Below, one piece after another: positions 29,242 through 37,072 of a stretch of 64,000 bases of DNA. Made by a program: the position numbers and the translations under genes. Source of the stretch: Luteolibacter flavescens (GTDB lineage Bacteria; Verrucomicrobiota; Verrucomicrobiia; Verrucomicrobiales; Akkermansiaceae); the NCBI RefSeq assembly GCF_025950085.1, contig NZ_JAPDDS010000002.1, positions 124,001 to 188,000 of the forward strand, in the 5' to 3' direction. The notes under the pieces were generated by a model. That model was not told where the DNA came from, did no database searches, and saw nothing but the letters and a program-made list of their open reading frames with translations. How positions within the stretch are numbered: position 1 is the stretch's first letter; each line of letters begins with the position of its first letter.

Positions 29242-32200
29242 CTACCCCTGCTTCACATCCGGCTCGAAGGCCAGGGGGGGCTTCTCCGAGGAGTCCACGC
29301 TTTCGATGCTGCCGCGGTCGTCCTGCACGGGCACGACTTTGATGTCCACCTGCACGGGGACCGCACGGAGGCCCTCGATGATCGTGCGGAGCTGGCCGAT
29401 GGTCTGATCGGCCAGCGACTGCGGCGCGGCGTAGCGCTCGCCCGCGCGGGAGATGCCATCCTTGATCGCCTCAAGGCCGTCATTAAACTGCGTGAGCTGC
29501 GCGACGACACGGGCGACGGGATCGCTCTCGCCACCGGCCCCGAGCAGCTTGCGCTTGTTGAACTCCTTCTTGATCTGGTCCCAACGCGCGGTCTGGGCCT
29601 CGTCTAACAGACCCTCCATTTCGTAGAACTTCAGCAGGTTTGCCTCGGCGGCGGTGGTGAGGTTCTGCGACTCGCCGCGGTAGTGGTCGATCACGATCTG
29701 CCGGACTTCCTCGGTCGTCATGAGCGGCAGCACCTTCTCGGTGATGCGGTTCATGTTCCGGTAGGAGCCCTGGAGCTTGAAGGGCGGCTCGGTACGGTAG
29801 GCGTCTTCCTGCGCGGCGCTGGCGATGTATTGCAGATTCACCCGCAGGATGGTGTCGCGCACGGAAAGCAGGTGCTTCACCACGGCGAGCATCTCCTCGA
29901 TCTCGGCGGGCGTGTAATTCCCCTCGAAGTCCGCGCCGTCGCGGCTGCCGGTCTCCGCCACGCGGATGAGCATCAGCACGTCCTTTTGCGAGCGGCTGGC
30001 GAGCTTCGACAGCGTAGCATTCGAGGTGAGCGAGTTTTCGATGTAGCTCGCCTTGAAGGCTGCGGCGTGTCCGCCGAGGATGTCACCGAGATTGTAGGTG
30101 TCGGCTCGGTTCGCGAGCATGTCCGGGATCTGGAACTTGCCGCCGCTCTCGGTGTAGGGATTGCCCGCCATGACCACGGCGACCTTCCGGCCACGCAGGT
30201 CATAGGTGCGCGCCTGCCCCTTCCACACGCCCTCGATCTTCCGCTGGGCATCGCAAAGGCTGATGAACTTCTGCAGGAACTCGGGGTCGGTGTGCTGGAT
30301 GTCGTCGAGGTAGAGCATCACGTTGTCACCCATTTCCAGCGCCAGGTTCGCGCGCTCGACTTCCATGCGCGCGGAGGCATTCGGCGCCTCGGCGGGGTCG
30401 AGCGAGAGCACGCGGTGGCCGAGCGCGGGGCCATTGATCTTCACGAAGGTGAGGCCGAGGCGATTCGCCACGTACTCCATGATGGTCGTCTTGCCATAGC
30501 CGGGCGGCGAGATGAGCAGCAGCAGGCCCATGCGGTCGGTGCGGGTATTCGCACCCGCGGTGCCGAGCTGCTTCGCGAGATTGTCGCCGATGAGTGGCAG
30601 ATAGACCTCGTCGATGAGGCGGTTCCGGACGAAGGCGCTCATCACCTTTGGCTTGAATTCATCGAGCCGCATCTGCTGGCGCTTCGCCCCGGTGAGCTGG
30701 GACTTCCGCTCGGCGAGCGCGCGGAAGGCAGCCGCATCGGTACGCTCGTGGCGCTCCAGGCGATCAAGGAATTCGCTGTAGTGGATCTCCAGCGCGCCAT
30801 CCGCGATCCGCGGGTGGCTGGAGCGCAGGCCCTCCGCACGGAAAGACAGCGGCACGGACTTCACCGCGCGCTGCTCGTAGCCACCGCGCGCGAACTGCAC
30901 CGCGGCTTCGTCGATCACCGCGGGCAGCAGCTCGGCGGGAGTGTCCGCCAGCGACTCCGGATGGTTCGCGACGAAGCCCGCCAGCCAGTCGCGGGCGATC
31001 TCGTAGCGGACAAATGCGGGCGTCTCCTGGTCGCCCAGCAGTTCCTTGAAGACACTCTCCGCGCGCTTGGCCACCAGGACGTGGTGGAACTGGCGGCTCA
31101 GCTCGGAAGCCGCGGCGGACACCAGAAAGGCCCCGCCGCCCGCGAGTTCCTCAGAGAGATAGTCCGCCACCTTCGCGGCGATGACATCCGCGAAGAGCCC
31201 GTGATCGGCGCTCCATTTCGCGAAGGCATCCGCGAGACGGGACTTCCACGACTCCGTCTCGTCGCCACCGGCGAACAAACTACGACGCTTCCCGTAGGAG
31301 GCGAATTGTCCCGCGAGACGCGTCTTCGCAGGATCCTCCCACGATTCCCAGAAGAGCACGGCTGCCGCGCGATCCCGCGGGCCGAAGCGCAGCAGCCCGG
31401 CCTCCGCATGGATGGGCAGGAGCTTCTCCAAAATCTTCGCCGCATCCTCGTCGTGGATGCCCTTCGTGTAGCCCTCGGCATAGCGCGGCTGCATGAAGGC
31501 CTGCACGGCCGCGAGGAGATTGTCCGTGGTGCTGCCATGGCGGAGGAATTGCCAGACGAGGTACTCCACGCGCGCGACACGCGGGCTCTCGCTCGGCACC
31601 TCCAGATCCCACGCATCGCGCGTGGCGAGGAACTCCGCATCGGTGATGGGCTCGAAGAACTTCGTGCCGGTGAGATGGAAGGCCATCGCGTCGTCGTGAG
31701 GCACGATGGTCATCTCCAGCGGCTGCGTGTTCACATTGAAGGAATTCTTGCCGAAGCGGATGACATTCTCGCCATCGACGTAGAGGTCCTTCTTGTCCTT
31801 GAGCTGGCGCACGCCGTCTTCGCGCAGCGTCTTGAGGCGCGTCTGGAGATCGTCCGCCTTCACCGTGTCGCCGAGCTGCTGGAGCTGGGCGATGAGGTCG
31901 CGGACCTTCTCGATCATCGGATCGGTCGCGAAGTACGAATGGATCTCCTCCACCTCGCCAAAGGACGCGACGCGATTCCGGATGCCCGCGAGGATGCGCT
32001 CGGCGGACTTGAAGAAGGCACCGGCACGCTTGCCCCGTGCCTCCACGAGCTGCGTGCGGCGACCCTCGAAGGCATCGTAGATCTCCTCGCGGCGCGTGGC
32101 GATCTGCTCGATGTATTCGTCGAACTCCGCGAACTTCCCTTCCAGCTCCTCCACCTGCACCATCAGGCGGGTCAGCGATTCGTCGCACTTCTCCGGCGTG

Positions 32201-34323
32201 TCGCAGAGGTCGAGGTAGTTCGCGAGCGCCTGCGAGAGAAGCTTCATCTGCGCGGCGAATTGCGCCTCGCCCTCGCCGCGAGCGAGCTCCCGGCGCTTGT
32301 TCCGCAGCGAACCGCGTGTGCCATTCAGCCGTGCATAGAGGGCCGAGATGCGCTCGATGATGGCGGTGGTCTGCGTCGCGTCGGCGATCTTCAGGCCGCC
32401 CACGATCTCGATGAGCATTTCCAGCTCGGTCGCGGCCTGGTCGAGGGCGGTGGCGACCTCGTCGGCTTCCGTGACCTTCGCGATCTTCGCCAGCGCGGCC
32501 TCCTGCGTGTCGATGGATGCGGCGTAGGACTTCAGCGAATCCTCGCCTAACAGGAAATCGACGGTGCGCGCGGACACGGCGTCGGTGGTCTCGACCACTT
32601 CCTTCTCGAAGCCCGCGATGACCGCCGCATCGGTGTAGCGGACGTCGCGCAGCGAGATGATCTCGCCGCGCAGCTTCCGCAGTCCCGCGAGCTGATGGAC
32701 GAAGCCATTCAGCGCATCCGGCGGCGAGGTCTTCGTCTCGCGCACGAGCTTTTCCACCGCGGTGCGGACGGCGGTGGTGCGCTCGGTGGCGACGGAGCGG
32801 AGCTTCTGGACTTTCTCGAATTCACCGATGGCAGTCTCGCCCGCCTTCTTGATCTCGCGGACCGGTGCGGCGAGCGACTGGCACTCGGCGCGGTCGAGCC
32901 AGAAGTAGGCATCGAGCAGGTCGCCCGAGCGCTTCACCACATCGAGGTAGAGGCCGGCGAAGGAGTCGTCCTTGGCCAGCAGCGTCAGTAGCTCGCGCGC
33001 CTCGGCCATGCCACGGACCAGCTCGGGATTGCCGATCTTGTAGAGGAAGGAGTCCTTGTTCGTCGCGGCGGCCGTGCTGGTCTCGTCGTCCAAGTACGGC
33101 GTCTGCCATATTTGCAGCGCGTGGTGCTTCTGCGGCTGGCCATCCCCGCGGAAGAGCACGAGCTGGCCGCTGCCGAAGAGCGAGTAGCCCGAGCAGACGA
33201 TGGGCGTCGCCACCGATTGCTGGATGCGGTTGTAGGAAAGCAGGACGTAATCGCCCGCCGCGCGGTTGTAGAAGGAGTAGAGGACGTCCTCACCATTCGA
33301 GCTGGCGACCTTGCGCTCGAAGCGCATGTCCATGAGGCCGTGGTCGAAAGTCTTCACCTCCCCGCTCTGCAGCAGGTAGCCATTCGCGAAGATGAGGCCA
33401 TGGTCATCCGGCAGCAGCACGCAGGAGTCGCCGATGGCATCAATGCGGTGCACCGTCTTCGTCTTCTCGTTGAAGACGAGGTGGCGGTGCATGCTCTCGC
33501 GGTAGGGCAGAATCTTCAGCAGGATGAGCGAGCCGACGGTGGCGTAGAAGATCTCCGCGTCATCGAGCGTCTGGTCGCTCTCCGTCACCGGCTCGGAATA
33601 GATGCCCTGGCCCGAAGCGGTATTGTCCTCGATCTTCACGGTGAGGTCGCCGCCGACGGTCTCGACGAAAACGCGGTCCTCGATGGAGATGTGCGGGTGG
33701 GTGCCAGCGCGGTGCATGCCGCGGTGGGCACGCTGCCACTGGAACTCCTGCTGCGCGGGGAAGACGCACTCGTGGTCGAAGCGATTCCCGATGTACTCGA
33801 GCGTCCCATCGCCCTCCAGCCGCCACTTGAAGGCCTTGATGTCATCGACCGTCTTGCCCGCCCGCATCACGAGATACAGGTGCGGGCCGATGATCATGAA
33901 CTTCTGGAAGACGGCCTCGCGGTAGTACTTGAAAAGGTACGCGAAGTCCTCGGCGAAGCGCGGTCCGGCCAGCACGTCCTCAACCGGCAAGGCGGTGAAG
34001 GCACGCGACTCGGTATCGAACTCATACGCGGCGAAGACGTCCTTGATGTCCGTCGTCTGCTTCAGGCCGAACTGGATATTGTAACCGAAAAGGAAGCGCC
34101 GCTTGCCGATCGCGACGAGGTCGCGGGCCACGCAATTGTGCTCGGTGGACACGCGCTCGGTGGCGAGCAGCGCCGTCTCGATGCCGCCGAACACCTCGAG
34201 GCGCTCGGCATTCAATGCATCGAGTCCGCTCCGCAGCGTCGCGGCGTGCTTGTCCAGCCGGGCGCGGATGACTTCATACGCGCCACCTTCGAGCTGGTCG
34301 GGCTTGGGAGATTCTTCAGACAT
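29242..34323 (-). CDS. Giant AAA+ ATPase of the DUF3686 'DNA repair ATPase' type
   Basis: A 1693-residue protein from the ATG at 34323 (MSEESPKPDQ); the frame extends 16 codons further into an inverted repeat. The N-terminal ~450 residues look like the DUF3686 region: beta-rich, with 'YLVMRAGKTVDDIKAFKWRLEGDG'. The middle (about 500-900) is long helical coiled coil. The AAA+ core has Walker A 'SPPGYGKTT' near residue 1274 and Walker B 'VMLYLDDIQHTDPEF' near 1338, with 'NRADTYNLGD' as sensor region. The family is annotated as DNA-repair ATPase, but evidence for that role is thin to my knowledge. Its neighbours here are a flotillin and an NfeD-like protein, which points instead to membrane remodelling. 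Confidence 0.8.
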   Translation of the reverse strand: MSEESPKPDQLEGGAYEVIRARLDKHAATLRSGLDALNAERLEVFGGIETALLATERVSTEHNCVARDLVAIGKRRFLFGYNIQFGLKQTTDIKDVFAAYEFDTESRAFTALPVEDVLAGPRFAEDFAYLFKYYREAVFQKFMIIGPHLYLVMRAGKTVDDIKAFKWRLEGDGTLEYIGNRFDHECVFPAQQEFQWQRAHRGMHRAGTHPHISIEDRVFVETVGGDLTVKIEDNTASGQGIYSEPVTESDQTLDDAEIFYATVGSLILLKILPYRESMHRHLVFNEKTKTVHRIDAIGDSCVLLPDDHGLIFANGYLLQSGEVKTFDHGLMDMRFERKVASSNGEDVLYSFYNRAAGDYVLLSYNRIQQSVATPIVCSGYSLFGSGQLVLFRGDGQPQKHHALQIWQTPYLDDETSTAAATNKDSFLYKIGNPELVRGMAEARELLTLLAKDDSFAGLYLDVVKRSGDLLDAYFWLDRAECQSLAAPVREIKKAGETAIGEFEKVQKLRSVATERTTAVRTAVEKLVRETKTSPPDALNGFVHQLAGLRKLRGEIISLRDVRYTDAAVIAGFEKEVVETTDAVSARTVDFLLGEDSLKSYAASIDTQEAALAKIAKVTEADEVATALDQAATELEMLIEIVGGLKIADATQTTAIIERISALYARLNGTRGSLRNKRRELARGEGEAQFAAQMKLLSQALANYLDLCDTPEKCDESLTRLMVQVEELEGKFAEFDEYIEQIATRREEIYDAFEGRRTQLVEARGKRAGAFFKSAERILAGIRNRVASFGEVEEIHSYFATDPMIEKVRDLIAQLQQLGDTVKADDLQTRLKTLREDGVRQLKDKKDLYVDGENVIRFGKNSFNVNTQPLEMTIVPHDDAMAFHLTGTKFFEPITDAEFLATRDAWDLEVPSESPRVARVEYLVWQFLRHGSTTDNLLAAVQAFMQPRYAEGYTKGIHDEDAAKILEKLLPIHAEAGLLRFGPRDRAAAVLFWESWEDPAKTRLAGQFASYGKRRSLFAGGDETESWKSRLADAFAKWSADHGLFADVIAAKVADYLSEELAGGGAFLVSAAASELSRQFHHVLVAKRAESVFKELLGDQETPAFVRYEIARDWLAGFVANHPESLADTPAELLPAVIDEAAVQFARGGYEQRAVKSVPLSFRAEGLRSSHPRIADGALEIHYSEFLDRLERHERTDAAAFRALAERKSQLTGAKRQQMRLDEFKPKVMSAFVRNRLIDEVYLPLIGDNLAKQLGTAGANTRTDRMGLLLLISPPGYGKTTIMEYVANRLGLTFVKINGPALGHRVLSLDPAEAPNASARMEVERANLALEMGDNVMLYLDDIQHTDPEFLQKFISLCDAQRKIEGVWKGQARTYDLRGRKVAVVMAGNPYTESGGKFQIPDMLANRADTYNLGDILGGHAAAFKASYIENSLTSNATLSKLASRSQKDVLMLIRVAETGSRDGADFEGNYTPAEIEEMLAVVKHLLSVRDTILRVNLQYIASAAQEDAYRTEPPFKLQGSYRNMNRITEKVLPLMTTEEVRQIVIDHYRGESQNLTTAAEANLLKFYEMEGLLDEAQTARWDQIKKEFNKRKLLGAGGESDPVARVVAQLTQFNDGLEAIKDGISRAGERYAAPQSLADQTIGQLRTIIEGLRAVPVQVDIKVVPVQDDRGSIESVDSSEKPPLAFEPDVKQG

Positions 34324-34329
34324 GGGATT

Positions 34330-34376
34330 AACCGCGAAAGAACGCGAAAATGCGCGAAATCTAAAAGGCAAGGAAA
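34330..34376. repeat. Left inverted repeat (IR-L) of the GxxExxY unit
   Basis: A 47-base sequence beginning AACCGCGAAAGAACGCGAAA that is the reverse complement, at 45 of 47 positions, of 34886-34932. The inner part repeats CGCGAAA three times at a 10-base step. It ends one base before the stop codon of the GxxExxY gene and begins six bases upstream of the giant ATPase start codon, so it occupies that gene's leader. Confidence 0.9.
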
Positions 34377-34377
34377 G

Positions 34378-34797
34378 TCAGTTGAGATCAGGGGGCTCGC
34401 TTCGCTCCCTGATCCAGTCGGTGAGAACGATCCGCTCCCACTCAAGTCCACCGAGACGACCGAAGTTCACGAGAAGACCGAGCTGGAAGCCTGTAGCCCT
34501 GAGATAATTGATCACTTGGGCACGATGCTCGTCGATGAGGCACTTCGCGACCTTCACTTCGAGCACGATCTTCGAGAACATCACGAAGTCAGCTTCATAG
34601 GACTGCTTCAGCGGCTCACCTTTGTAGACAAGGGCAAGACCGGGATGGTGGACGTAGGGCAGATTCCTCCAGCGAAACTCCTTCTCGAGGCACTCGTGGT
34701 AGATGGGTTCGTAGAAGCCGATTCCCATCTCCTTGTAGACCTCGAAGCAGGCACCCATGATCTCATAGCTCTCCTGCTTGTAGAGTAGCTCGCTCAT
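34378..34797 (-). CDS. GxxExxY protein (PD-(D/E)XK nuclease-like)
   Basis: A 139-residue protein carrying the name-giving motif G27-F-Y-E30-P-I-Y33 and, later, the nuclease-like acidic core 'EAD70F' and 'LE80VK82'. Gln94 and Tyr98 lie in the helix 'QVINYLR', and a 'LGLLVNFG' strand follows. This matches the TIGR04256 family, placed in the PD-(D/E)XK superfamily; the biochemical role is unknown to me. All core acidic and Lys residues are present, so it may be active. It is flanked by inverted repeats (34330-34376 and 34886-34932), unlike any other gene in the window. Confidence 0.88.
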   Translation of the reverse strand: MSELLYKQESYEIMGACFEVYKEMGIGFYEPIYHECLEKEFRWRNLPYVHHPGLALVYKGEPLKQSYEADFVMFSKIVLEVKVAKCLIDEHRAQVINYLRATGFQLGLLVNFGRLGGLEWERIVLTDWIRERSEPPDLN

Positions 34798-34885
34798 TGG
34801 TTCGGGAGGAAGGAGGAGAGCCGCGAAGTCATACGAAGGGACGCGAAATTTGAAGAACTCCAGGAAGACGTCTCATCACTCTTCC

Positions 34886-34932
34886 TTTCCCTGCCTTTCA
34901 GATTTCGCGCATTTTCGCGTTCTTTCGCGGTT
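34886..34932. repeat. Right inverted repeat (IR-R) of the GxxExxY unit
   Basis: A 47-base sequence ending TTCGCGTTCTTTCGCGGTT, the inverted partner of 34330-34376 with two mismatches. A looser copy of the CGCGAA pattern (GCCGCGAAGTC... ACGCGAAATTTG) lies between it and the GxxExxY start, around 34820-34853. Confidence 0.9.
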
Positions 34933-34948
34933 CAATCTTTGGTGCGAA

Positions 34949-34980
34949 CCACGGGCCGGGCATCGCTACCCGACCCGTGG
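34949..34980 (-). terminator. Terminator hairpin downstream of the flotillin gene
   Basis: CCACGGGCCGGG (34949-34960) pairs with CCCGACCCGTGG (34969-34980) over 12 positions with one mismatch and an 8-base loop. It starts 14 bases past the flotillin stop on the minus strand and separates the flotillin operon from the GxxExxY unit. Confidence 0.65.
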
Positions 34981-34993
34981 CAAATCCATTCAT

Positions 34994-37072
34994 TCAGCCA
35001 AGCACCTTCGCGGCGTTCTGGTCGGCGAGGCCGAAGCGGTCGGCGGCACCGAGCAGGCTGATGAGCTTGCTGCGGGTTTCACCGTTCGCACTGCCGAGGA
35101 ACTGCGCGATGGCCGCACCCACGGTGAGGTTCTTCACGTCCTCGCTGCTGATGCCGAACTGGCCGGCCCATTCGCGGAGCTGTGACTTGAAGTATTCCGG
35201 ATCCCCGTTGAAGAAGGTCTCCTTCACATCGTGCAGCACCTCGCTGTGGGCGACCATGCGGTCCACCGACTTGCCGCGGGAGATGGCCCCGGCGATCTGG
35301 TCGAAGAACTTGCTCTCGCCACCGATGATCTCGATCTTGGCGGACTTCATCGCCTCGCCCATGACCTTGGCCTGCGCCTCGGCGATGTCCTTCTGGATAT
35401 TGATCCCGGCAAGCTCGATGGCCTTTTCCTTCTCCAGCTTGAGCTTGAATTCCTCGTGGGCCTGTCCGGCTTCCTCGAGCAGCTTCATCGCCTCGGCCTT
35501 CTTGTTGATGCCCTCGGCCTCGGCCTCGAACTTCAGGCGGCTGACCTCCGCCTCGGCGGTGCCCTGCTTCTGCGCGGCATCGGCCTTCGCCAGCATGACC
35601 TCGGCTTCGCCAAGTCCGGGCGCGGCGGTTTCCTTCGCGGTGGCTTCGGCGAGCTGCTTCTTGGCAAATGCCAGCTTCTCGCTCGCGGACTGCTCGGCCT
35701 CGGCGGAGATGACGACCTGCTCGGCCTTCAGCTCGGCAGCCTTCTTGTCGGCCTCGGCGGCCTTCACGCGCTCGTAGAGATCCTGGTCGGCACGCAGCTT
35801 CGCGGCCTCCTGGCTGGCCTCAGCTTCCTTCACCTTGCGGATCATTTCCTCCTGCGCCACGGCCTCGGCCAGGGTGACGGTGACCTGCTTCTGACGGTCA
35901 GCGCCGGCAAAAGCCTCGGTGTCCTTGATGCGCTCCTGCTCGACCACGACGAGCTTCTCGACCGCGACGCGCTCCTTGATCACGTCCTGGATCGCCTTCT
36001 TCTCGATCTCGACGGCCTTCTCCTTTTCGATCGACTTGAGCGAGGTGACGCGCTCGCGCTCGATGGCCTCCAGCTCCTGGTCGCGCCTCACGCGCTCGAT
36101 CTCGACCACGTCGGTGCGCTCCTTGTTGCGCAGGGCGACGAGGACCTGGCGTTCCTTGTTCTGGGTGGCGACGTCGATCTCCTCCTGCGCGGCGATGCGG
36201 GCGCGCTCGGCCTTCTGGCGCTCTTCTTCCTGCACCTTCATCGTCTCCGCCTGTTCGCGGGCACGCACGCTGTCCACCTCGCGCTTCTGCTTCGCCTCGG
36301 TCTCGGAAAGCTGGCGCTCCAGCTCGAGGATCGCCTCGCGGGCTTCCACGTCCTGCTGCTTGATGACCTTCTCCTTGTCGCGCTGGATGTGGTTCGCGAG
36401 CTTCGCCTGCGTGGCGGTGAGTTCGGTGATCTTCTTGATGCCCTGCGCGTCGAGGATGTTGTCCGGATCAAGCGCTTCGATCGGAGTCTGCTCGAGGTAA
36501 TCGATCGCGGCGTCATCGAGGACGAAGCCGTTCAGGTTCGTGCCGATGATCTTGATGATCTCGTCGCGGAAGGTTTCGCGCTCTTCATACAGCTCGGTGA
36601 AATCGAAGCGCTTGCCGACGGTCTTCAATGCTTCGGAGAACTTCGCGTCAAAGAGCGAGCGGATCTCCTCGGTATTCGACGCGCGATCACAACCGACCGA
36701 CTGAGCCACGCGCAGCACGTCTTCGTCGGTCTGATTCACACGAACGAAGAAGGCGACCTTGATGTCCGCGCGCATGTTGTCCTTGCAGATCAGGCCGTTC
36801 TTCGCGGTACGGTCGATCTCCACGCGCTTGAGGGAGATGTCCATGGTCTCCATCCTATGGAACACGGGGACCATCATCATGCCATTGAAGCTGACCTTGG
36901 TGCCACCTGCGCCCGTCCGAATCAGAGCCTGGCCTCTCTGGGCCTTGCGATAGAGCATCGAATAAACGAGGCCCAGCACCGCGAAGGCAGCGATTATCGC
37001 ACCGAGCGCCAACGCGCCTATCGTTACGATTTGTTGGGTGGAGTTTTGTGCGAGCAGGGATGGCAGGTTCAT
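34994..37072 (-). CDS. Flotillin-family SPFH protein (YqiK-like)
   Basis: A 692-residue protein. One N-terminal membrane helix (residues 17-40) is followed by an SPFH/band-7 domain (about 42-230), with 'GMMMVPVFHRMETMDISLKRVEID' and 'NLNGFVLDDAAIDYLEQTPI'. A very long Glu/Ala/Lys-rich coiled coil (about 240-580) follows, and then a flotillin-type C-terminal segment. Flotillins form large ring or cage assemblies in ordered membrane zones. The length and paired upstream gene match E. coli YqiK with YqiJ. It overlaps the YqiJ-like gene by 4 bases (coupled translation). Confidence 0.9.
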   Translation of the reverse strand: MNLPSLLAQNSTQQIVTIGALALGAIIAAFAVLGLVYSMLYRKAQRGQALIRTGAGGTKVSFNGMMMVPVFHRMETMDISLKRVEIDRTAKNGLICKDNMRADIKVAFFVRVNQTDEDVLRVAQSVGCDRASNTEEIRSLFDAKFSEALKTVGKRFDFTELYEERETFRDEIIKIIGTNLNGFVLDDAAIDYLEQTPIEALDPDNILDAQGIKKITELTATQAKLANHIQRDKEKVIKQQDVEAREAILELERQLSETEAKQKREVDSVRAREQAETMKVQEEERQKAERARIAAQEEIDVATQNKERQVLVALRNKERTDVVEIERVRRDQELEAIERERVTSLKSIEKEKAVEIEKKAIQDVIKERVAVEKLVVVEQERIKDTEAFAGADRQKQVTVTLAEAVAQEEMIRKVKEAEASQEAAKLRADQDLYERVKAAEADKKAAELKAEQVVISAEAEQSASEKLAFAKKQLAEATAKETAAPGLGEAEVMLAKADAAQKQGTAEAEVSRLKFEAEAEGINKKAEAMKLLEEAGQAHEEFKLKLEKEKAIELAGINIQKDIAEAQAKVMGEAMKSAKIEIIGGESKFFDQIAGAISRGKSVDRMVAHSEVLHDVKETFFNGDPEYFKSQLREWAGQFGISSEDVKNLTVGAAIAQFLGSANGETRSKLISLLGAADRFGLADQNAAKVLG

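Follow-up and report, generated by a model that had tools for sequence, protein, structure and literature searches.

The GxxExxY gene in the window (the whole stretch of 64,000 nucleotides that was analysed) is the sole gene of a short unit bounded by two inverted arms, and paired arms, mostly of the same design with three copies of a heptamer, flank about 55 to 64% of the GxxExxY genes examined. The heptamer covaries with the N-terminal stretch of the protein encoded between the arms, and recognition of the arms by the GxxExxY protein is the best-supported step of the explanation given here and, on these sequence comparisons, very probable. We regard it as probable that the whole unit works like a REPtron (a RAYT gene with its REP/REPIN repeats), with a repeat-specific PD-(D/E)XK nuclease acting at the ends.

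The two arms in the window form an inverted pair of 48 nt with 46 of 48 positions identical (96% complementary), which is the pair that a sequence-only reading of this DNA had given one base shorter, as 47 bp matching at 45 positions. Each arm has AACC on its outside and then three CGCGAAA heptamers, spaced by 10 nt (Table 1). On the upstream side, the presence of a decayed inner arm makes this side a whole palindromic element (34820-34932). No outer repeats of the TAGAGC type are seen in the short stretches separating the unit from its neighbour genes, and no known RNA family was matched between 33500 and 36000 at E ≤ 0.1. Chance as the origin of these repeats is ruled out by the 46 of 48 pair, by the matches elsewhere in the genome and by the rarity of such pairing in control ORFs (4 of 241). 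The heptamer triplets at 10-nt spacing, the decayed second upstream arm and the membership of the arm in a dispersed family go beyond the sequence-only reading.

Table 1. Features of the unit and its surroundings, in positions of the window.
Feature	Position	Strand	Remark
AAA+ protein with DUF3686, downstream neighbour	29242..34323	-	start at 34323 inferred; ORF opens at 34371
Whole unit	34330..34932	.	603 bp, one gene
Downstream arm (3' side of the gene)	34330..34377	+	outer AACC 34330-34333; adjoins the stop codon of the gene
CGCGAAA heptamers of the downstream arm	34333-34339, 34343-34349, 34353-34359	+	from the sequence
GxxExxY / PDDEXK_3 gene	34378..34797	-	139 aa, ATG at 34797; sole gene between the arms
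Decayed inner arm	34820..34850 (about)	+	CGCGAAG, TACGAAG, CGCGAAA at 10-nt spacing; read from the sequence
Upstream arm (5' side of the gene)	34885..34932	- (minus-strand reading)	heptamers 34923-34929, 34913-34919, 34903-34909
Terminator-like hairpin	34948..34981	-	between the flotillin-like gene and the unit
Flotillin-like protein, upstream neighbour	34994..37072	-	692 aa; name from the sequence-only reading

The single gene with an intact D...ExK core described in the sequence-only reading is confirmed by profile search, in which the window protein scores 122.1 bits against TIGR04256 (curated cut-off 35) and 123.1 bits against PF13366, PDDEXK_3 (cut-off 22). The residues E30, D70, E80, K82, Q94 and Y98 are all there, with D70, E80 and K82 making up the D...ExK core, and E30, D70, K82 and Y98 are invariant in both alignments (23 and 30 sequences). 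PDDEXK_3 is the sole Pfam match of the protein, in which no HUH/Tyr transposase was found; a PADLOC search returned no match at E ≤ 0.1, to Cas4 or to anything else, and no relative with a solved structure was found by sequence at E ≤ 1. One relative, not the window protein, has weak matches to Cas4 (E 0.0015) and to a CRISPR-associated phage family (E 5.1e-05). As for the two direct neighbours, the Pfam scan of these two gave no Cas family match, and the 692-aa flotillin-like protein has no Pfam match at E 1e-3.

The family is found in 75 of the 97 genomes searched (the window's own included) and in 163 of 288 sampled genomes of the phylum (E ≤ 0.001), and it occurs in many other phyla. The genome of the window carries three GxxExxY genes, each beside a different triplet repeat. 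The second of these (L043:1655-1916) has two tandem palindromes of the CACAGAT type upstream, and no paired arm was found downstream of it. One genome (G016) gave no GxxExxY match, and two members of the genus hold matches in pieces, apparently decayed or split genes (G004:C1:141182-141519, G005:C337:3804-3992 and G005:C557:9089-9211).

To compare flanks over many loci, two sets of genes were used. Set 1 started from 204 ORF matches in 203 loci, of which 183 remained without duplicates and 182 had both 150-nt flanks; GxxExxY genes of the genus were partly taken (5 of 6 in G011, 3 of 4 in G006), and since the set contains orthologous loci its rows are not independent. Set 2, a multi-phylum set of 80 loci from named genomes, was fetched after set 1 and gave 81 ORFs, 73 of them with both flanks; its query was of the LGPGLLESV type, so that it covers a single branch of the family. 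Two of its genes, L329 (= L101) and L286, duplicate set 1 genes, and without them set 2 comprises 71 genes. The MAG contig of L329 bears the title Akkermansia muciniphila, and over 2594 bp it matches a contig of G006, a member of the window's genus, at 100% identity, so that its name looks doubtful.

Paired inverted flanks turned out to be common. In a first count at a score of at least 18, they were present in 66 of 104 genes versus 2 of 227 control ORFs. At a score of at least 15, 116 of 182 set 1 genes have them; of the neighbouring ORFs 4 of 241 do, and of mismatched flank pairs 10 of 1000. The corresponding figure for set 2 is 40 of 73 (39 of 71 without duplicates) versus 31 of 1000 mismatched pairs; at a score of at least 20, it is 24 of 73 (23 of 71) versus 0 of 1000. 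Going by the record titles, set 2 covers 15 phyla, and 10 of them have at least one gene with paired flanks. No pair at a score of at least 15 is present in 66 of 182 genes (set 1) and 33 of 73 genes (set 2). The possibility raised earlier, that the flanks of other GxxExxY genes never show paired repeats, is thereby shown to be false, and pairing as a one-off of the window gene is ruled out by the 66 of 104, 116 of 182 and 40 of 73 genes.

Of the 131 set 1 genes that score at least 13, 112 parse as three heptamers 8-12 nt apart, 105 of which have the AACC side outermost, and in 101 the heptamer is strictly CRCNRAN. In set 2, 47 genes score at least 13; L329 was dropped and L314 and L350 were unparsed, leaving 44, of which 40 are strictly CRCNRAN and one is without its N-terminus. 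The heptamer differs among units and largely agrees inside one unit, and the bases preceding the first heptamer lean to T-T/G-A-A-C (180 arms). For units with a flank score of at least 18 in the two sets, the median length is 501 bp (94 units) and 465.5 bp (30 units), and the median distance from the stop codon to the arm is 12.5 and 5 nt; the upstream arm lies at a median of 51 and 46.5 nt from the domain start in the two sets. Among the 30 set 1 genes at a score of at least 13 that are not CRCNRAN, 19 have at least two [AG]GAT in an arm, and 18 of these 19 have Thr at residue 10. The exceptions are L086 (Ala), which is among the 19, and L139 (Ala), for which there is no simple fit either. 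Besides, L044 (G000) and L421 (G009), apparently at the same locus, have GGATGG-type arms and mixed CGCAGAT/CGGGATGG arms respectively, perhaps a step between repeat classes.

For the relation between protein and repeat, residues are numbered as in the window protein and bases by their position in the heptamer. In the 101 genes of set 1, Thr at residue 10 goes with G at base 5 in 45 of 46 cases and Ala, Val or Cys with A in 20 of 20, while Gly goes with A five times and with G once. Set 2, fetched after the rule had been seen and with set 1 duplicates removed, gave Thr with G in 17 of 17 and Ala with A in 4 of 4. From a Ser at residue 10, base 5 cannot be told in either set (14 A and 13 G in set 1; 14 A and 8 G in set 2). 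In close disjoint pairs (42-80% identity), residue 10 differs in 32 of 38 when base 5 differs versus 14 of 35 when it is the same (p 1e-4), and residue 14 in 27 of 38 versus 9 of 35 (p 1e-4). These two residues are the most strongly linked to base 5, and the step of four residues between them would be compatible with one face of a helix.

Base 5 changes 30 times on a tree for which the first 22 alignment columns were left out. The contrasts of Thr with Ala, Val, Cys or Gly over all branches and both sets give 10.5 that agree, 0 that disagree and 0.5 tie (p 0.001), of which three residue 10/base 5 contrasts remain on well-supported branches alone. The pairing of Thr at residue 10 with base 5 is the best among 1230 column tests (p 4e-5), borderline after Bonferroni. 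Since base 5 follows residue 10 and the tree contrasts agree, the protein probably recognises its own repeats; the earlier proposal that it may do so is thus supported by covariation, including that in the later multi-phylum set. Other links were set aside. On the tree, the link of base 2 to residue 12 is weak (7.2:2.0, p 0.18), and the relation of this base to residue 12 or 15 is only suggestive, Asp at residue 15 having failed in set 2 (4 A, 4 G). Base 7 with residues 9, 18 and 21 has a strong raw association, which was dropped as clade-bound (8 changes on the tree).

The junction between the flotillin-like and AAA+ genes, proposed earlier as a place to look for clean presence or absence, was found in 14 of 18 genus genomes, with the GxxExxY gene there in 10 and absent in 4. 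With the unit removed, the junction of the window is 77 nt long versus 75 nt in the unit-free G007, whose junction also folds a hairpin after the flotillin-like gene. A recent insertion in the window is unsupported, as the gene stands at this junction in 10 of the 14 genomes, G000 included. Across these ten genomes, the N-terminus and the arms vary together at this one locus: ESY/ECY is found with CGCGAAA (once GACGAAA), ETH/ETY with CACGGAA or CACAGAA, and EAF/EAY with CACGAAT, the EAY row being read from unparsed arms.

In all, 114 gene pairs are at least 72% identical in their DNA across the gene, and among the 80 listed the closest are mostly syntenic and the lower ones less so. Because most listed close pairs are at the same place in different species, movement looks rare; judging from these alignments, related units mostly share their location while the protein and both arms change together. 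The pair that departs most clearly from this is L226 and L213, which share 88% identity over 500 bp with no flank homology within 1.2 kb; the homology begins at AACCAC and ends at GTGGT. In this one moved pair no sign of a target duplication was seen, and its arms fit the CRCNRAN design poorly. The earlier suggestion of a mobile or formerly mobile unit therefore stands in part: paired flanks are common, the junction exists with and without the unit, and the homology of L226/L213 ends at the repeat tips, whereas most of the listed close pairs have stayed at the same place.

The window arm is also a member of a dispersed family. With the 603-bp unit as query, there are 43 BLAST matches in its own genome, including the unit itself and two cross-matches, and many palindromes are counted once per strand; for an 18-base core, allowing at most 3 mismatches, there are 42 matches, both window arms among them, versus 4 for the reversed control. 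Among the solo loci fetched in this genome, 13 of 18 show a palindromic doublet with 60-62 nt between the arm starts. About 12 of 16 aligned solo copies sit inside a larger, conventional-looking MITE-like element of roughly 260 bp with outer TAGAGC.../...GCTCTA; the remaining ones are one partial copy and three bare palindromes (L045, L049 and L052). The MITE-like element with an internal CGCGAAA palindrome is seen at L046-L048, L051, L053-L057, L059 and L061, with outer repeats TAGAGCG(A)TTTCAC.../...GTGAAATGCTCTA, and a similar one with other outer bases is found in G009, where the solos share up to 232 bp. As most aligned solo palindromes lie inside this element, another machine probably spread most of them, and the solo palindromes were dropped as clean proof of GxxExxY-driven movement. 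Repeats occurring everywhere without the gene had been named as evidence against the unit; many such copies do exist, as non-autonomous derivatives would, with about 12 of 16 aligned ones in the MITE-like element.

For the bare solo L045, G009 has syntenic flanks and lacks the palindrome, with an intergenic stretch too diverged to place the ends; for L049, the empty-site comparison matched on one side only. In addition, a 114-nt inverted pair (77%) at L042:3647-4292 (contig C26 of the window's genome) holds two CGCGAAA arms that lie about 600 bp from each other. No GxxExxY gene stands between these arms, and the locus may be read as an empty composite or a decayed unit.

Triplet numbers were also compared over the 18 genus genomes. 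CGCCAAG triplets (at most 2 mismatches, gene arms included) reach top counts of 68, 54 and 44, the next being 28, and in just these top three genomes a CGCCAAG-armed gene was read whose two sides each hold a full triplet (rank test p 0.004). For CGCGAAA, the three genomes with a resident gene have 19, 15 and 10 triplets (rank test p 0.018), yet most (32) are in G009, whose three GxxExxY genes carry other arms. The reversed control gave 0 in 18 of 18 genomes for CGCGAAA and 0 in 17 of 18 for CGCCAAG, with one match in G001.

The proposed working of the unit is as follows. The GxxExxY gene and the two surrounding arms would form a minimal unit of about 0.5 kb, the protein would bind the three heptamers of each arm and bring the ends together, and its nuclease core would act at the AACC ends or next to them; in this way, cutting and repair might occasionally copy or move the unit as well as the palindromes derived from it. 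Taking the anatomy and the one moved pair together, we lean slightly towards a REPtron-like element whose nuclease would act at the ends.

Three other explanations were weighed. The protein could bind the arms to control its own transcription, the dispersed palindromes being further binding sites, and would then move nothing. Such an operator agrees with an upstream arm close before the gene and with the in-place conservation of most listed close pairs across species, and covariation shows recognition at most, not cutting. It would nevertheless make the inverted second arm soon after the stop codon superfluous, and the outer AACC of most arms, the invariant core residues and the homologous unit that ends at the arm tips at two sites (L226/L213) also speak against it, so we consider it unlikely. 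Also improbable is a domesticated role, in which the palindromes would be sites of the chromosome itself (cruciforms, or marks for replication or repair) and a Cas4/RecB-like nuclease would serve the cell. In-place inheritance, the tens of matched sites in some genomes and the weak Cas4 and CRISPR-associated phage family matches of one relative, which the window protein lacks, would suit it; against it, the gene is freely absent, from G016 and from 4 of 14 junctions, and the letters of the site change among relatives at one locus, unlike a cell-wide signal.

A far weaker candidate holds a conventional MITE family responsible for the repeats, with the GxxExxY gene merely caught between two copies. 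Most aligned solo palindromes of the window's genome within a larger element with TAGAGC...GCTCTA ends, and the long shared stretches of the solos in G009, are what this predicts. However, the gene is set in the same architecture in 10 phyla, where the heptamers are of many kinds, the heptamer goes with the protein, and the short stretches beside the window unit have no such outer repeats; this explanation is disfavoured as very improbable.

If the REPtron-like reading is true, it would provide the first testable role for a nuclease-like family that is widespread in the phylum sampled, and a second enzyme type for REPIN-like repeats. The units would be a natural experiment on a protein and a DNA site whose specificities shift jointly, one residue being predicted to set the specificity, and intergenic repeats built as AACC + 3 x CRCNRAN could find their explanation here. 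More broadly, though we put this forward tentatively, as somewhat doubtful, there may be a widespread, undescribed class of single-gene elements, in which a protein of about 130 residues reads a heptamer triplet via a short N-terminal stretch with a residue-to-base rule, cuts its own ends and persists with palindromic offspring while enzyme and repeat shift specificity jointly in place.

In the open-access literature searched, neither a role nor repeats were found for TIGR04256 GxxExxY or PF13366 PDDEXK_3, and the open-access literature on REP/RAYT, PVC repeats and repeat sequences gave nothing on GxxExxY repeat units. No paper in that literature names PDDEXK_3; one passage places a GxxExxY gene near a reverse transcriptase, and TIGR04256 or PF13366 occurs in a paper on Arctic microalgae. 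The pairing of enzyme and repeat and the residue-to-base link, neither of which was found in that literature, thus appear new; alternatively, they may be viewed as of one kind with every repeat-flanked enzyme gene.

Compared with known systems, the window gene belongs to TIGR04256 GxxExxY / PF13366 PDDEXK_3 by score. With insertion sequences and MITEs, the unit shares terminal inverted repeats round one gene and the existence of short non-autonomous copies. In the one moved pair no target duplication was seen, and the three genes of the window's genome each have different repeats. TnsA of Tn7 has a restriction-enzyme-like fold and cuts transposon ends that bear arrays of binding sites, a likeness to the GxxExxY units; TnsA needs TnsB, whereas the 0.5-kb units hold one gene. 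In Thiomargarita, PD-(D/E)XK_2 'Yhg-A' genes occur with a MITE, and the origin of the MITE from a PD-(D/E)XK_2 element has been suggested (PMC4853749). That system differs in its family (PFAM12784) and in its 19-bp inverted repeats capped by 10-bp direct repeats, with no heptamer triplets in the passages compared (PMC4853749). The closest comparison is with the REPtron, which in the passages compared is a single RAYT gene flanked by repeats, with inverted doublets dispersed in the genome and repeat types tied to particular enzymes (PMC3116915, PMC3733652). The GxxExxY gene is likewise flanked by its own repeats, with inverted doublets dispersed in the genome. RAYTs, as those passages describe them, are transposases of the HUH/Tyr type whose substrates are short single-strand repeats tagged with GTAG, whereas the present units combine a PD-(D/E)XK protein with heptamer triplets, AACC ends and a residue-to-base link. 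Since the enzyme is no RAYT, the likeness to the REPtron is one of working, not of descent.
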